Positions 49,574 to 52,901 of a stretch of DNA of 64,000 bases are shown one piece after another. The DNA comes from Ensifer adhaerens (GTDB taxonomy: Bacteria > Pseudomonadota > Alphaproteobacteria > Rhizobiales > Rhizobiaceae): contig NZ_CP083349.1 of assembly GCF_020035535.1 (NCBI RefSeq), positions 1,302,001-1,366,000 on the forward strand, read 5' to 3'. The notes under the pieces are model-generated. The model had not been told where the DNA came from. It ran no database searches and saw only the letters and a program-made list of their open reading frames with translations. How positions within the stretch are numbered: the stretch's first letter is position 1; each line of letters begins with the position of its first letter. Made by a program: the position numbers and the translations under genes.

Positions 49574-49717
49574 TTAACGGAAGGAACGAGCCGCAATGTT
49601 GCGGATGTCGTAGCGGGTGATGCCGATGTCGGTGAGAGCGTGGTTCGACAGGTTGCCGAGCTCGCTGACGGTGCGGCGGTAGTTGATCCAGCTTTTTGCG
49701 ATACGAATCGGGTTCAT
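49574..49717 (-). CDS. DUF1127-family small protein (YjiS-like) 1
   Basis: The 47-residue basic protein begins [20 protein letters not shown] and ends [17 protein letters not shown], the DUF1127 pattern (helix, then LSDIGLxRxDI). Members in alphaproteobacteria act in RNA turnover and phosphate or carbon responses, for example CcaF1 of Rhodobacter, which binds RNA. GAGGAAAAGAC lies upstream on the minus strand. It has its own terminator and a second copy lies about 420 bases away. Confidence 0.88.
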
Positions 49718-50075
49718 GGTCTTTTCCTCAAAATCAGTTTGTCGCGACAGCCATCTGTCTGCGTCGTTGAAGTTCTTATACGCTTGTCTAATTAGAAGGT
49801 GGAGTGCAAAGAAAATGCAGCTGCTATGCATTTGTGCAGTGCATCGCCACATAGATGGGCACCGATGCAAAAGTCGGCATCAATTAATGATTGATTAAAA
49901 TGCCGACTGCCTTGCGCTAACGTATTGTCTTTAAACGGTATACTTAAACCAGAATACGGGTGGTCGAAGGCGCGCTATGGACGTGGCTCTCGCAGCTTGG
50001 GCCGATGATGCTGGCCAAGCGTAAGCTGGCGTCTCGCAAGTGCGAAGGCGCGTTCGGGTTTGCCGCCGGCCGGGC
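49718..50075. other. A+T-rich spacer between the two DUF1127 genes
   Basis: No gene is evident in these bases. The part at 49770-49960 is A+T-rich and contains a 37-base inverted repeat (49872-49908) with a CtrA-type TTAA-N7-TTAA in its loop. The promoter of the first DUF1127 gene should lie at about 49720-49800; TATAAG is visible there on the minus strand without a good -35. Confidence 0.5.
49872..49908. repeat. Inverted repeat with CtrA-type box in the loop
   Basis: AGTCGGCAT (49872-49880) and ATGCCGACT (49900-49908) are perfect 9-base arms. The 19-base A+T-rich loop contains TTAATGATTGATTAA (49884-49898), a TTAA-N7-TTAA match. It could be an operator, a cruciform or an RNA hairpin. Confidence 0.6.
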
Positions 50076-50110
50076 AAAAGAAAACGCCCCCCGGAGTGAA
50101 CCGGAGGGCG
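50076..50110 (-). terminator. Rho-independent terminator of the second DUF1127 gene
   Basis: On the minus strand CGCCCTCCGG pairs with CCGGGGGGCG across TTCACT and is followed by TTTTCTTTT. Confidence 0.85.
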
Positions 50111-50139
50111 CTGACGGTTAGGTCGGTCTGCAGCCTGAA

Positions 50140-50283
50140 TTACTTGACTGCCTGACGAGCAACGTAAGGGATGTCGCCGCGGCCGATGCCGAGGTCGCTC
50201 AGCTCACGGTCGCTCATGCGGCCGAGTTCGTTGCAGGTCTGACGATACTTGCGCCAATTGTTGAAAGAACGTGCGAGGTTCAT
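50140..50283 (-). CDS. DUF1127-family small protein (YjiS-like) 2
   Basis: Translation of the minus strand gives a 47-residue basic protein starting MNLARSFNNWRKYRQTCNEL and ending in GRGDIPYVARQAVK, with the DUF1127 signature MSDRELSDLGIGRGDI. AGGATAGGATC precedes the ATG at 50283. It is a diverged paralogue of the gene at 49574. It lies 228 bases downstream (minus strand) of two tandem sRNA genes; in Rhodobacter a DUF1127 gene (RSP_6037) is also joined to CcsR sRNAs, though there the gene precedes the RNAs. Confidence 0.9.
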   Translation of the reverse strand: MNLARSFNNWRKYRQTCNELGRMSDRELSDLGIGRGDIPYVARQAVK

Positions 50284-50510
50284 GATCCTATCCTTTCTAG
50301 GGTCGTGTGCCAGCGCTCATCTCTCTTGCTGGCCGTCATCTGATGCTCTGAAATATAATCGTTCTGAGCAGAAGTTACAGAGACAATGCTGCATCGCACC
50401 CATGCAGGGCATGCAAGCCTCTGTGCGACGGTACCCTCGCGCATGGCGCCGAAACGCATGGCGCAATCGGGTGGCGGTGGCTGGAGTTGTTGCCCAAAAT
50501 CCAGGGCCGG

Positions 50511-50645
50511 AAAACAAACAACGCCCGCTGAGGGAGGAGATCCAGCGAGCGTCGCTTTGTTCTGATCGGCAACCGGGAGGAGGAGTGTCGCCGATCCAAA
50601 TCGAGGGGCGCTGGGAGGAGGAGTGCGCCGCCCCGATCGATGAGT
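50511..50645 (-). ncRNA. alpha-r14/cuckoo (CcsR-like) sRNA, copy B
   Basis: On the minus strand this region folds into three hairpins, each with a C-rich anti-Shine-Dalgarno loop. Hairpin 1: stem GGCGC/GCGCC (50607-50611 with 50625-50629), loop ACTCCTCCTCCCA. Hairpin 2: GATCGGC/GCCGATC (50564-50570 with 50590-50596) with CTCCTCCTCCC in the loop. Hairpin 3: CGCTCGCTGG with CAGCGGGCG, loop ATCTCCTCCCT, then TTGTTTGTTTT, a terminator. The layout equals that known for rhizobial alpha-r14 RNAs such as NfeR1 (Smr14C2). The 5' end is estimated. Confidence 0.85.
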
Positions 50646-50780
50646 TGAAGATAGTATGGAGCTGGCCTGAGGTGTAGAGCCGATCCAGAATGGCACCTAT
50701 GCACTGCGCGCATAGCGTTGCGCGAATACGGCGGTCGCGTGCACGAATAATGTGCAAGTGCGCGATGGCGGCAGCTAACA

Positions 50781-50794
50781 CGTGGGAGGAGGGG
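50781..50794 (-). other. Isolated anti-Shine-Dalgarno sequence
   Basis: GTGGGAGGAGGGGC on the plus strand reads GCCCCTCCTCCCAC on the minus strand, just past the terminator of sRNA copy A. It has no stem of its own and may be a remnant of a third copy. Confidence 0.4.
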
Positions 50795-50797
50795 CTG

Positions 50798-50920
50798 AAA
50801 ACAATAACGCCCGCTGGGGGAGGAGGTCCAGCGAGCGTCATTTGAAGTGATTGGCAACTGGGAGGAGGAGTGTTGCCAATCTGATCGGAGGAGCGCTGGG
50901 AGGAGGAGTGCGCTCGACCG
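50798..50920 (-). ncRNA. alpha-r14/cuckoo (CcsR-like) sRNA, copy A
   Basis: This is an imperfect tandem copy of the RNA at 50511. Hairpin 1: GAGCGC/GCGCTC (50891-50896 with 50910-50915), loop ACTCCTCCTCCCA. Hairpin 2: a perfect 9-bp stem ATTGGCAAC/GTTGCCAAT (50850-50858 with 50872-50880) with the same 13-base loop. Hairpin 3 (50808-50837): loop ACCTCCTCCC and a tail TTATTGTTTT on the minus strand, a terminator. Stems differ from copy B by compensating changes (for example GATCGGC versus ATTGGCA) while loops are kept, which supports selection on structure. The 5' end is estimated from family length. Confidence 0.87.
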
Positions 50921-51210
50921 AATTCCATCGGGCCTTTCTCAGCAAGCTGAGGCGGGTGGCCGTTTCCGCTGGCGACCGTCGGGCTTCATGCCTTCGTTCG
51001 CCTTTGATGTTTTGAATATAGGAGCTTTAAATCGATTTGTGCAGTGCAATATCCGCATGGAAGATATGCGCCTTGCGCAAGCCGTTCATCAGTCCCAATC
51101 GGCGCAGGCCTCAGTCGCGAGAGAGCGATTGTATTTCCGCGTCGATACGTGGTTAGTTGGTGATGCAACCGGATCAATTCAAGCATCGGATTCTGAAGGC
51201 TGAGAGCAGG

Positions 51211-52320
51211 ATGTACCGCGCACGTCTCGAGCGAGACTTCAAGCACTGGATCGACAAGGGGCTGCTGCAGGAGAACGCGGCGCGCGCCATGATTGCCGAG
51301 TATGACGGGCGCGAGTCGACATTCCGGGCGGGGCGCGTGCTACTTATGCTGGCGGCCCTTCTGCTATCCGCGTCGATCCTGCTGCTCGTTGCGGCGAACT
51401 GGGAGGAGTTGCCGCGCCTTGCGCGGGTCGCAGGCATCGTCGGCCTGGTCTGGGGCTTCCATCTTGCTGCCGCCTGGCTGCTCCAGAGCGGGCGGACGGC
51501 ATTTGCAGCCGCAGCGCTGGTTCTGGGGGCGGCCGCCTTTGGCGGCGGTATCGCGCTCATCGGGCAGATGTATCATCTGTCGGGCGATGCAGCCGACGCG
51601 GCCCTGCTTTGGTTCGTCGGTGTCTGCGTTTCGGCACTCGCGTTCCGCTCCGCGGCAATGTCCGCGACCGCCGGCGGGCTCGCCTGCTTCTATTTCGGCA
51701 CCATGTTGACGGAAAATGATTTCAGCACGGAGTTCGACTGGCGCTTGTGGTCGGTGCCGGTGCTTGCCGTGATTGTCGTTCTCCTGGTCCGCTTCACGGA
51801 TGCGGGCAGGGCCCGGCATCTGGCCTATCTGCTCGTCCTTTCCTGGCTCGGCTGGCTTTATCTGGATAGTCCGTCACTTGCTTTTGCGGTCGGCCTCGCG
51901 GTCCTCGGCCTTGCGGCCTTTCTGGTGGCGACGCTCCCAGGATCGCCCCTGCGCCTGCTTGCGATCGATGCAGGGTCGGCGCCTGCATTCTACTCCTTCG
52001 CGCTTGCCCTGCTTGGCTTCACCGGGCTTCAATATGAGGCTGTCGGGCTGACGACGGAGGTTGCGACCGGAACAGGCACCTTGCTGGTGGCGCTTCTGGG
52101 CATAGCGCTTGCCGGTGCGCAGAACGGCGCAGTCCGTTATCTCGGCTACATCGCCTTCGCCGGCGAGCTTCTCTACCTAGCCTTCGAAACGCTCGGATCG
52201 ATGCTTGGCACATCGGGATTCTTCCTGATTTCGGGTCTTGTCGTGGCGTGCATTGCATGGCTGGTCATTCGCATCGAGGGGCACATGGCCCGCACGCGTC
52301 AGGCGGAGGCTTCGCGATGA
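51211..52320 (+). CDS. DUF2157 polytopic membrane protein
   Basis: The protein of about 369 residues has a cytoplasmic N-terminal segment (RLERDFKHWIDKGLL) of DUF2157 type, followed by about 10-11 membrane helices. The function is unknown. ATG 51211 is preferred, with GAGAGCAGG directly before it; ATG 51163 would add 16 residues. The stop overlaps the next gene (ATGA). The DUF2157-GDYXXLXY pair is common in bacteria. Confidence 0.8.
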   Translation: MYRARLERDFKHWIDKGLLQENAARAMIAEYDGRESTFRAGRVLLMLAALLLSASILLLVAANWEELPRLARVAGIVGLVWGFHLAAAWLLQSGRTAFAAAALVLGAAAFGGGIALIGQMYHLSGDAADAALLWFVGVCVSALAFRSAAMSATAGGLACFYFGTMLTENDFSTEFDWRLWSVPVLAVIVVLLVRFTDAGRARHLAYLLVLSWLGWLYLDSPSLAFAVGLAVLGLAAFLVATLPGSPLRLLAIDAGSAPAFYSFALALLGFTGLQYEAVGLTTEVATGTGTLLVALLGIALAGAQNGAVRYLGYIAFAGELLYLAFETLGSMLGTSGFFLISGLVVACIAWLVIRIEGHMARTRQAEASR

Positions 52321-52901
52321 CAGGCGGGACGTCGCGTAAACGTTGGCTGAACCCGCTGCTCGCCGCGCTGCTTGTCGCCGGCGTACAGACGGCGGCCCTT
52401 GGCTACATGATCGAGAGCAGGGCTTCGATCCTCAGAAACGGGCGGGACGTCCTTCTGAAGACCGTACCCGTCGATCCGCGCGACCTGCTCAGGGGCGACT
52501 ACGTGATTCTGAGCTACGATATTTCCAGGTTGCAGCCGGAACTGTTCAAAGGTGCCTTGCCAACGCAATCGGGCGAGGTGGTGCTTTATGTCCGGCTGGA
52601 GAAGCAGTCCGACGGTTTCTGGGCGGCGACGGAAGCGTCGTTTCAGCCGCTGCCGCTGATCGGCGACAGCGTTGTACTCCGTTCGCTGCCATTCTCCTAC
52701 TATCCGTCGGCGTCGTTGCCCTTGACTGTGGACTACGGCATCGAGCGTTTCTACGTGCCGGAGGGCGAAGGCCGCACGCTGGAGGAGGCGCGAAATGCCG
52801 AGGCGCTTTCCGTCAACATCCGCGTCGATGGCAAGGGCAGGGCGCAGATCCGTGAGATTGCGGTCAATGGAAGCCCGGTCTATGAAGAGCCCCTTTACTG
52901 A
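52317..52901 (+). CDS. GDYXXLXY-domain membrane protein
   Basis: The 194-residue protein has an N-terminal membrane helix or signal anchor (about residues 11-30) and the family signature GDYVILSY at about residues 59-66, which gives the GDYXXLXY domain its name. The rest is probably periplasmic beta-rich. It overlaps the DUF2157 gene by four bases, so the two proteins probably act together. The function is unknown. Confidence 0.85.
   Translation: MTGGTSRKRWLNPLLAALLVAGVQTAALGYMIESRASILRNGRDVLLKTVPVDPRDLLRGDYVILSYDISRLQPELFKGALPTQSGEVVLYVRLEKQSDGFWAATEASFQPLPLIGDSVVLRSLPFSYYPSASLPLTVDYGIERFYVPEGEGRTLEEARNAEALSVNIRVDGKGRAQIREIAVNGSPVYEEPLY

Follow-up and report, generated by a model that had tools for sequence, protein, structure and literature searches.

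Several described RNA systems resemble the locus analysed here, the closest being NfeR1 of Sinorhizobium meliloti, a member of the alpha-r14 RNAs, for which an architecture of three hairpins with anti-Shine-Dalgarno (anti-SD) motifs has been published (PMC10746234). NfeR1 (Smr14C2 or SmelC397; 1667613-1667492, minus strand) is one of six copies in S. meliloti and, under the conditions used, the only one reported as reliably detected by Northern blotting (PMC7143759). A survey of S. meliloti 1021 sRNAs lists SmelC397 at 1667491-1667614 (minus strand, 124 nt) (PMC2873474), and the length of NfeR1 is elsewhere given as 123 nt (PMC10746234) or 115 nt (PMC8844928). As described in PMC10746234, NfeR1 is a nitrogen-stress RNA that silences ntrB, its three motifs are redundant in action, and its gene has LsrB as activator and NtrC as repressor; the promoter PnfeR1 has a core CTTAGAC-N17-CTATAT, an LsrB site TGCA-N6-GCAT at approximately -72 to -57 and, farther upstream between -101 and -116, the NtrC motif TGC-N11-GCA. 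A second RNA of the survey, SmelC398 (sra38, Sm7; 1667766-1667982, minus strand, 217 nt), adjoins SmelC397 on the same strand; within the open-licence literature it is named only in this 2010 survey, the relevant passages of which give it no function (PMC2873474).

Two further systems bear on the comparison. In Rhodobacter sphaeroides, the cuckoo RNAs CcsR1-4 are processed by RNase E from one ccaF1-CcsR transcript in which the DUF1127 gene comes first, and the same paper cites DUF1127 genes beside such RNAs as the CIN1 locus (PMC10253847). AbcR1 and AbcR2 (alpha-r15, RF00519) are tandem sRNAs with two anti-SD motifs that bind Hfq; in S. meliloti, LsrB controls abcR1 and not abcR2, and the LsrB consensus given for PabcR1 is GCAT-N3-TG-N3-T (PMC8844928). 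VtlR, the counterpart of LsrB, is an activator of DUF1127 genes in Brucella (PMC12595884); in Agrobacterium it activates atu1667 (PMC7486931).

Here, we analyse a cluster of RNA and small-protein genes in the window, i.e., a stretch of 64,000 nucleotides of the Ensifer adhaerens genome. We consider it highly probable that the cluster encodes two separately transcribed, trans-acting alpha-r14 sRNAs, of which one (copy 2) would be nfeR1 and the other (copy 1) likely the counterpart of SmelC398, and that the cluster as a whole is likely under LsrB control. The locus is real and conserved, and in substance it is already known with respect to the RNA family, its mechanism, the S. meliloti RNA pair and the DUF1127 association. 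What remains as a new point is the hint, from promoter sequences, of a predicted difference in nitrogen control between the twins.

Results

Two alpha-r14 RNAs in tandem

The RNA features of the locus are as follows.

50926-50802, minus strand: alpha-r14 sRNA copy 1, 125 nt; RF02344 115.2 bits, model positions 1-123 of 123
50641-50516, minus strand: alpha-r14 sRNA copy 2, assigned as the nfeR1 orthologue (Smr14C2/SmelC397) on a promoter plan as in PnfeR1, 126 nt; RF02344 100 bits
50784-50792, minus strand: extra CCTCCTCCC between the copies, the seventh such motif; at that place in 1/16 same-genus genomes

An Rfam scan of the whole window at the curators' cut-offs returned three matches, i.e., both alpha-r14 copies and one tRNA. 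Both copies score above the cut-off of the alpha-r14 (ar14) model RF02344 (58.8 bits) over the full model length, with whole-window E values (cmscan) of 1.3e-20 for copy 1 and 3.2e-17 for copy 2, while a search with the same model over 14 control genomes gave no match. Because of these E values and the 0/14 control genomes matched, chance is excluded as the source of either match. The 5' ends of the two copies lie 285 nt apart. Thus, the initial annotation, which had placed two alpha-r14 RNAs in tandem on the minus strand, was right in coordinates, lengths, spacing and family.

Folded alone, each copy forms three hairpins with a CU-rich anti-SD word in every loop, which bears out the six CTCCTCC loops that had been proposed. 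CCUCCUCCC is unpaired in each of the three hairpins of both copies, and loop 3 of copy 2 reads UCUCCUCCC; the loops of the CcsR RNAs carry CCUCCUCC. We aligned 34 alpha-r14 rows (26 distinct), comprising 16 sequences of copy 1, 16 of copy 2 and two solitary paralogues of the source genome. CTCCTCC is present in all three loops of all 34, the 32 tandem copies included. Hairpin 3 has an 11-bp G+C-rich stem and a loop of 10 followed by TTATTGTTTT or TTGTTTGTTTT, a layout with which it plausibly doubles as a terminator; the terminator scan takes loops of 3-8 only and does not list it. The extra CCTCCTCCC between the copies was considered as a working part and rejected on its near absence from that place in the genus.

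The stems had been described as differing between the copies while loops and pairing are kept. The difference quoted for hairpin 2 is real (GATTGGCAAC/GTTGCCAATC in copy 1 versus GATCGGCGAC/GTTGCCGATC in copy 2) and, over the 34 rows, both partners have changed in 13 of the 31 stem pairs of the Rfam structure. In shuffled alignments the mean was 4.1 and 0/500 reached 13; slid controls of the Rfam structure gave 1-3 such pairs and are the weightier comparison, because shuffles keep relatedness in. Overall, 93.1% of the cells in the 34 rows pair, with 99.6% in helix 2, 100% in helix 3 and 79.0% in helix 1. Pairing is also conserved in related genomes: in the Rfam register, helices 2 and 3 are paired in all cells of both copies over the 16 same-genus genomes. 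Helix 1, with 144/160 paired cells in copy 1 and 112/160 in copy 2, is the weak spot of the structural support, and in its own fold hairpin 1 of copy 2 closes in a slightly different register.

The twins form separate lineages

The tandem pair is present in all 16 same-genus genomes, source included, with the copies 282-288 nt apart. In the source genome (8.1 Mb, three contigs), scoring of 150 of 303 first-look candidates gave at least four ar14 matches above the cut-off, i.e., the tandem pair and one further match on each of contigs 1 and 2. A search of 41 genomes (the source and 40 relatives) with stricter filters and at most 64 candidates scored per genome gave a match at E <= 0.001 in at least 32, and above the cut-off in at least 25; among the candidates scored, there was no match in nine.

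Tree building on the 34 rows kept all copy 1 rows together, and likewise all copy 2 rows, in 100% of 200 bootstrap trees when the two solitary rows, which may fall inside either group, are left uncounted. The branch separating copy 1 from copy 2 has support of 85/75, and no branch in the tree is starred; the placement of the solitary paralogues, which sit on long branches, is unsure. Sequences of copy 1 have identities of 0.872-1.000 to one another and those of copy 2 of 0.937-1.000; between the copies the values are 0.736-0.840. Judged by the tree, the duplication that gave rise to the two copies predates the genus sample, and by their grouping and upstream sequences the twins are separate lineages with different promoters.

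Copy 2 has the promoter plan of nfeR1

Counted with 50641 as +1, the region upstream of copy 2 contains the following.

50649-50677, minus strand: core promoter CTACAC-N17-CTATCT, read from the sequence against the published CTTAGAC-N17-CTATAT
50690-50702, minus strand: LsrB consensus GCAT-N3-TG-N3-T; 16/16 genomes
50699-50712, minus strand: TGCN-N6-GCAT, a box of the LsrB T-N11-A type, at -71; 15/16 genomes, missing in one (L008)
50740-50756, minus strand: NtrC-type site TGC-N11-GCA at -115; 16/16 genomes

The core promoter of copy 2 does not appear among the sites listed by the sigma-70 scan. Because its core promoter, LsrB-type box and NtrC-type site match the plan of PnfeR1, copy 2 is, on promoter sequence, the nfeR1 orthologue. 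Copy 2 resembles NfeR1 in length, in its three anti-SD hairpins, in the positions of the LsrB and NtrC sites and in having a neighbouring RNA upstream on the same strand. The distance to abcR1/2-lsrB was tried as an identity test and failed, as it is ~266 kb here versus ~31 kb in S. meliloti 1021 (PMC7143759), and the promoter plan was used instead. A further point of comparison with the S. meliloti system is ntrB, taken here as the frame between a dusB-like frame and ntrC (ntrC assigned by family model, the other two by position). The pairing of its start region with the anti-SD loop, at -12.1 kcal/mol, is unremarkable, since 8.7% of 3000 random 60-mers drawn from the window pair as strongly or more so; it weighs neither for nor against ntrB as a target.

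Copy 1 has a promoter and a predicted leader of its own

Upstream of copy 1, the following features were found.

50927-51008, minus strand: 5' leader predicted for copy 1, 82 nt in this genome, its 5' end being set relative to the -10 box as at copy 2
51015-51043, minus strand: core promoter TGCACA-N17-TATATT; 9/12 matches in the sigma-70 scan, block conserved in 16 genomes
51066-51079, minus strand: TGCGCAAGGCGCAT, a loose LsrB-like box, at -71 counted from the predicted start; TGCN-N6-GCAT in 16/16 genomes, exact TGCA in 1/16

The sigma-70 scan gave two sites in 1.9 kb, compared to 0.8 in shuffles. The full LsrB consensus GCAT-N3-TG-N3-T precedes copy 1 in 0/16 genomes, and an NtrC-type site lies within 140 nt of the predicted start in 0/16. 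With its own promoter, a predicted leader, a loose LsrB-like box only and no NtrC-type site, copy 1 is probably controlled differently from copy 2.

Starting at ~51008, the predicted copy 1 RNA would be 205-220 nt long over the 16 genomes, which approximates the length of SmelC398 (217 nt); the genes of copy 1 and copy 2 are separated by 157-162 nt here, those of SmelC397 and SmelC398 by 151 nt. Copy 1 is, therefore, most likely the orthologue of the SmelC398 core, an assignment made by description, i.e., from strand, order, distance to the NfeR1 gene and length with leader. The 16 leaders have a mean column identity of 82%, and their consensus structure has 18 pairs, four of them with changes on both sides, and a covariation term of -1.49 kcal/mol, which lends modest support to a structured leader. 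A candidate small ORF in the leader was dropped as its ATG is not conserved.

Two DUF1127 genes and LsrB sites adjoin the RNA pair

Downstream of the two copies lie the following features.

50393-50405, minus strand: LsrB consensus before DUF1127 gene A; 16/16 genomes
50140-50283, minus strand: DUF1127 small protein A, 47 aa; PF06568, E = 9e-17
50083-50112, minus strand: terminator-like hairpin after DUF1127 gene A, from the terminator scan
49828-49840, plus strand, i.e., opposite to the gene: LsrB consensus before DUF1127 gene B; 16/16 genomes
49574-49717, minus strand: DUF1127 small protein B, 47 aa; PF06568, E = 3.9e-14

Two DUF1127 frames are present at the locus in all 16 same-genus genomes, and the neighbourhood had been read correctly in that both genes lie downstream of the copies on the same strand. 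The likeness to the CcsR RNAs that had been drawn together with that to alpha-r14 stands only in part. The alpha-r14 architecture and the DUF1127 neighbourhood hold, and the two genes for 47-aa proteins beside the RNA pair are a trait of CIN1-type loci. By contrast, the gene order of the CcsR operon is not found: in ccaF1-CcsR the DUF1127 gene leads a single operon, whereas the cluster in the window has the RNAs in front, with a separate conserved promoter-like block for either copy.

The LsrB consensus is common, with 11 matches in the window versus 8.15 expected. Three of the 11 fall within 49828-50702, and the Poisson probability of at least three in 875 bp, as estimated after the sites were seen, is 2e-4. 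The AbcR pair of the source genome, encoded elsewhere and named here by its order behind an lsrB-like gene, served as a check. The full consensus stands before abcR1 (two matches) and is absent from the 160 nt before abcR2, which agrees with the published LsrB control of that pair. Loose TGCN-N6-GCAT matches are found near both abcR1 and abcR2, so the loose box is by itself weak evidence for LsrB at copy 1. Because the LsrB consensus lies upstream of both DUF1127 genes as well as of copy 2, LsrB most likely controls the RNA and small-protein genes of the cluster as a set.

On the strand opposite to the RNA pair, 51157-52901 contains a gene for a DUF2157 protein followed by one for a GDYXXLXY protein. 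A search of genome contigs with this neighbouring DUF2157 protein matched four Ensifer records and three distant ones, and the four Ensifer loci with the protein have two DUF1127 frames on the opposite strand.

Alpha-r14 loci outside the genus

Fourteen ar14 loci of other genera (L020-L033) were covered with 1.5 kb on either side, less in L031. A DUF1127 profile built from the genus proteins, which distant DUF1127 proteins may escape, identified a frame in 9/14 loci (6/9 with ar14 above the cut-off, 3/5 below). The same profile found no frame near either solitary paralogue, wider loci L049 and L050 included, and none in 12 comparison loci (L034-L037, L042-L048, L051), which represent about eight independent places, several being overlapping or close, and of which L042-L044 lie outside the ar14 search.

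Promoter sites were read over 260 nt for nine ar14 copies of seven other-genus genomes (G016-G019, G022-G024). The full LsrB consensus occurs on the RNA's strand in 2/9 copies (the downstream copy of G018 and a copy in G024); in one more (G019) it lies at -232 on the other strand. An NtrC-type site occurs in 0/9 over these 260 nt. In G018, which belongs to another genus, the gene order is RNA, RNA, DUF1127, DUF1127 as in the window, and the 13-mer GCATAGGTGCCAT recurs letter for letter before the downstream ar14 copy. The 13-mers before DUF1127 gene A (50393-50405) and copy 2 (50690-50702) are identical to those before the matching genes in G018. Two other genera (G017 and G018) also have ATTGCACTGCACAA, preceded by a TGCN-N6-GCAT box.

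In G022, G023 and G019 (loci L022, L024 and L026, at ~position 1500), the ar14 hairpins start 8, 74 and 49 nt past a DUF1127 stop codon, as if these RNAs came from the 3' end of a DUF1127 mRNA. This arrangement resembles ccaF1-CcsR and is unlike the separate promoter blocks in the genus of the window.

Discussion

The reading that best fits the locus is that copy 1 and copy 2 would be transcribed separately as trans-acting alpha-r14 sRNAs. Through its three CCUCCUCC loops, each RNA would base-pair to target mRNAs at the ribosome-binding region and so block their translation, as shown for NfeR1 in S. meliloti and expected here. Copy 2 would be activated by LsrB and repressed by NtrC, as shown in S. 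meliloti and in keeping with the conserved sites, while copy 1 would be transcribed from its own promoter with a start ~82 nt upstream of its hairpins. The LsrB sites upstream of both DUF1127 genes suggest that LsrB control is shared across the cluster.

For copy 1, we tentatively put forward, as a possibility we would not yet favour, that the upstream twin of nfeR1 is an LsrB-responsive alpha-r14 RNA that is not repressible by NtrC and has its own structured leader. If true, the pair would split one targeting activity, given the same anti-SD loops, into a nitrogen-vetoed and a nitrogen-blind gene, and the twins would share their cluster with two DUF1127 genes that respond to the same activator. 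There would then be a parallel to AbcR1/AbcR2, which are likewise a tandem sRNA pair with anti-SD motifs and twins under different transcriptional control, one under LsrB and the other not, although they belong to another Rfam family. In the open-licence literature, we met neither the promoter contrast between the twins nor the LsrB sites common to both DUF1127 genes of the cluster. The analysis locates nfeR1, a studied symbiosis regulator of alfalfa's root-nodule bacterium, together with a twin that has received little study and two DUF1127 genes, in one conserved cluster; the prediction that the twin is without the NtrC brake bears on why these bacteria keep several alpha-r14 genes.

That copy 1 is instead a remnant, expressed weakly and having hardly any function of its own, seems doubtful to us. 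Its lower conservation compared to copy 2, its lack of the full LsrB consensus and the detection of NfeR1 as the only copy reliably seen on Northern blots in S. meliloti (PMC7143759) would all fit such a remnant; however, its promoter block is conserved in 16/16 genomes and its loops in all, ATTGCACTGCACAA and the upstream TGCN-N6-GCAT box are found again in G017 and G018, and SmelC398 is listed in the S. meliloti survey (PMC2873474).

The initial annotation had taken the tandem arrangement as a sign of a dosage-controlled global regulator, i.e., of functionally identical copies that raise the amount of one RNA. The intact CTCCTCC in all three loops of 32/32 tandem copies and the redundancy of the three NfeR1 motifs in S. 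meliloti (PMC10746234) are what one would expect of such copies. Against this idea, the twins belong to separate lineages, their promoters differ in that an NtrC-type site precedes copy 2 in 16/16 genomes and copy 1 in 0/16, and only one of six S. meliloti copies is reliably seen on Northern blots (PMC7143759). We therefore do not retain the dosage claim and regard it as unlikely.

A Rhodobacter-like operon, in which a single RNase E-cut transcript yields both the RNAs and the DUF1127 mRNAs and a DUF1127 protein matures the RNAs, is very improbable. In its favour, the two DUF1127 genes lie on the same strand <1 kb from copy 2, ccaF1-CcsR is such an operon (PMC10253847) and the hairpins in G022, G023 and G019 follow DUF1127 stop codons closely. 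Against it, the order is reversed here, a promoter-like block is conserved at each unit and two separate RNAs are listed in the S. meliloti survey (PMC2873474).

Apart from the twins, the solitary ar14 paralogue on contig 2 (L004, 1361-1500) has an upstream TGCN-N6-GCAT and a TGTATATTCAAATCATCGAAGCGA stretch that resemble the copy 1 promoter, and by this resemblance it may have descended from a gene of the copy 1 type.
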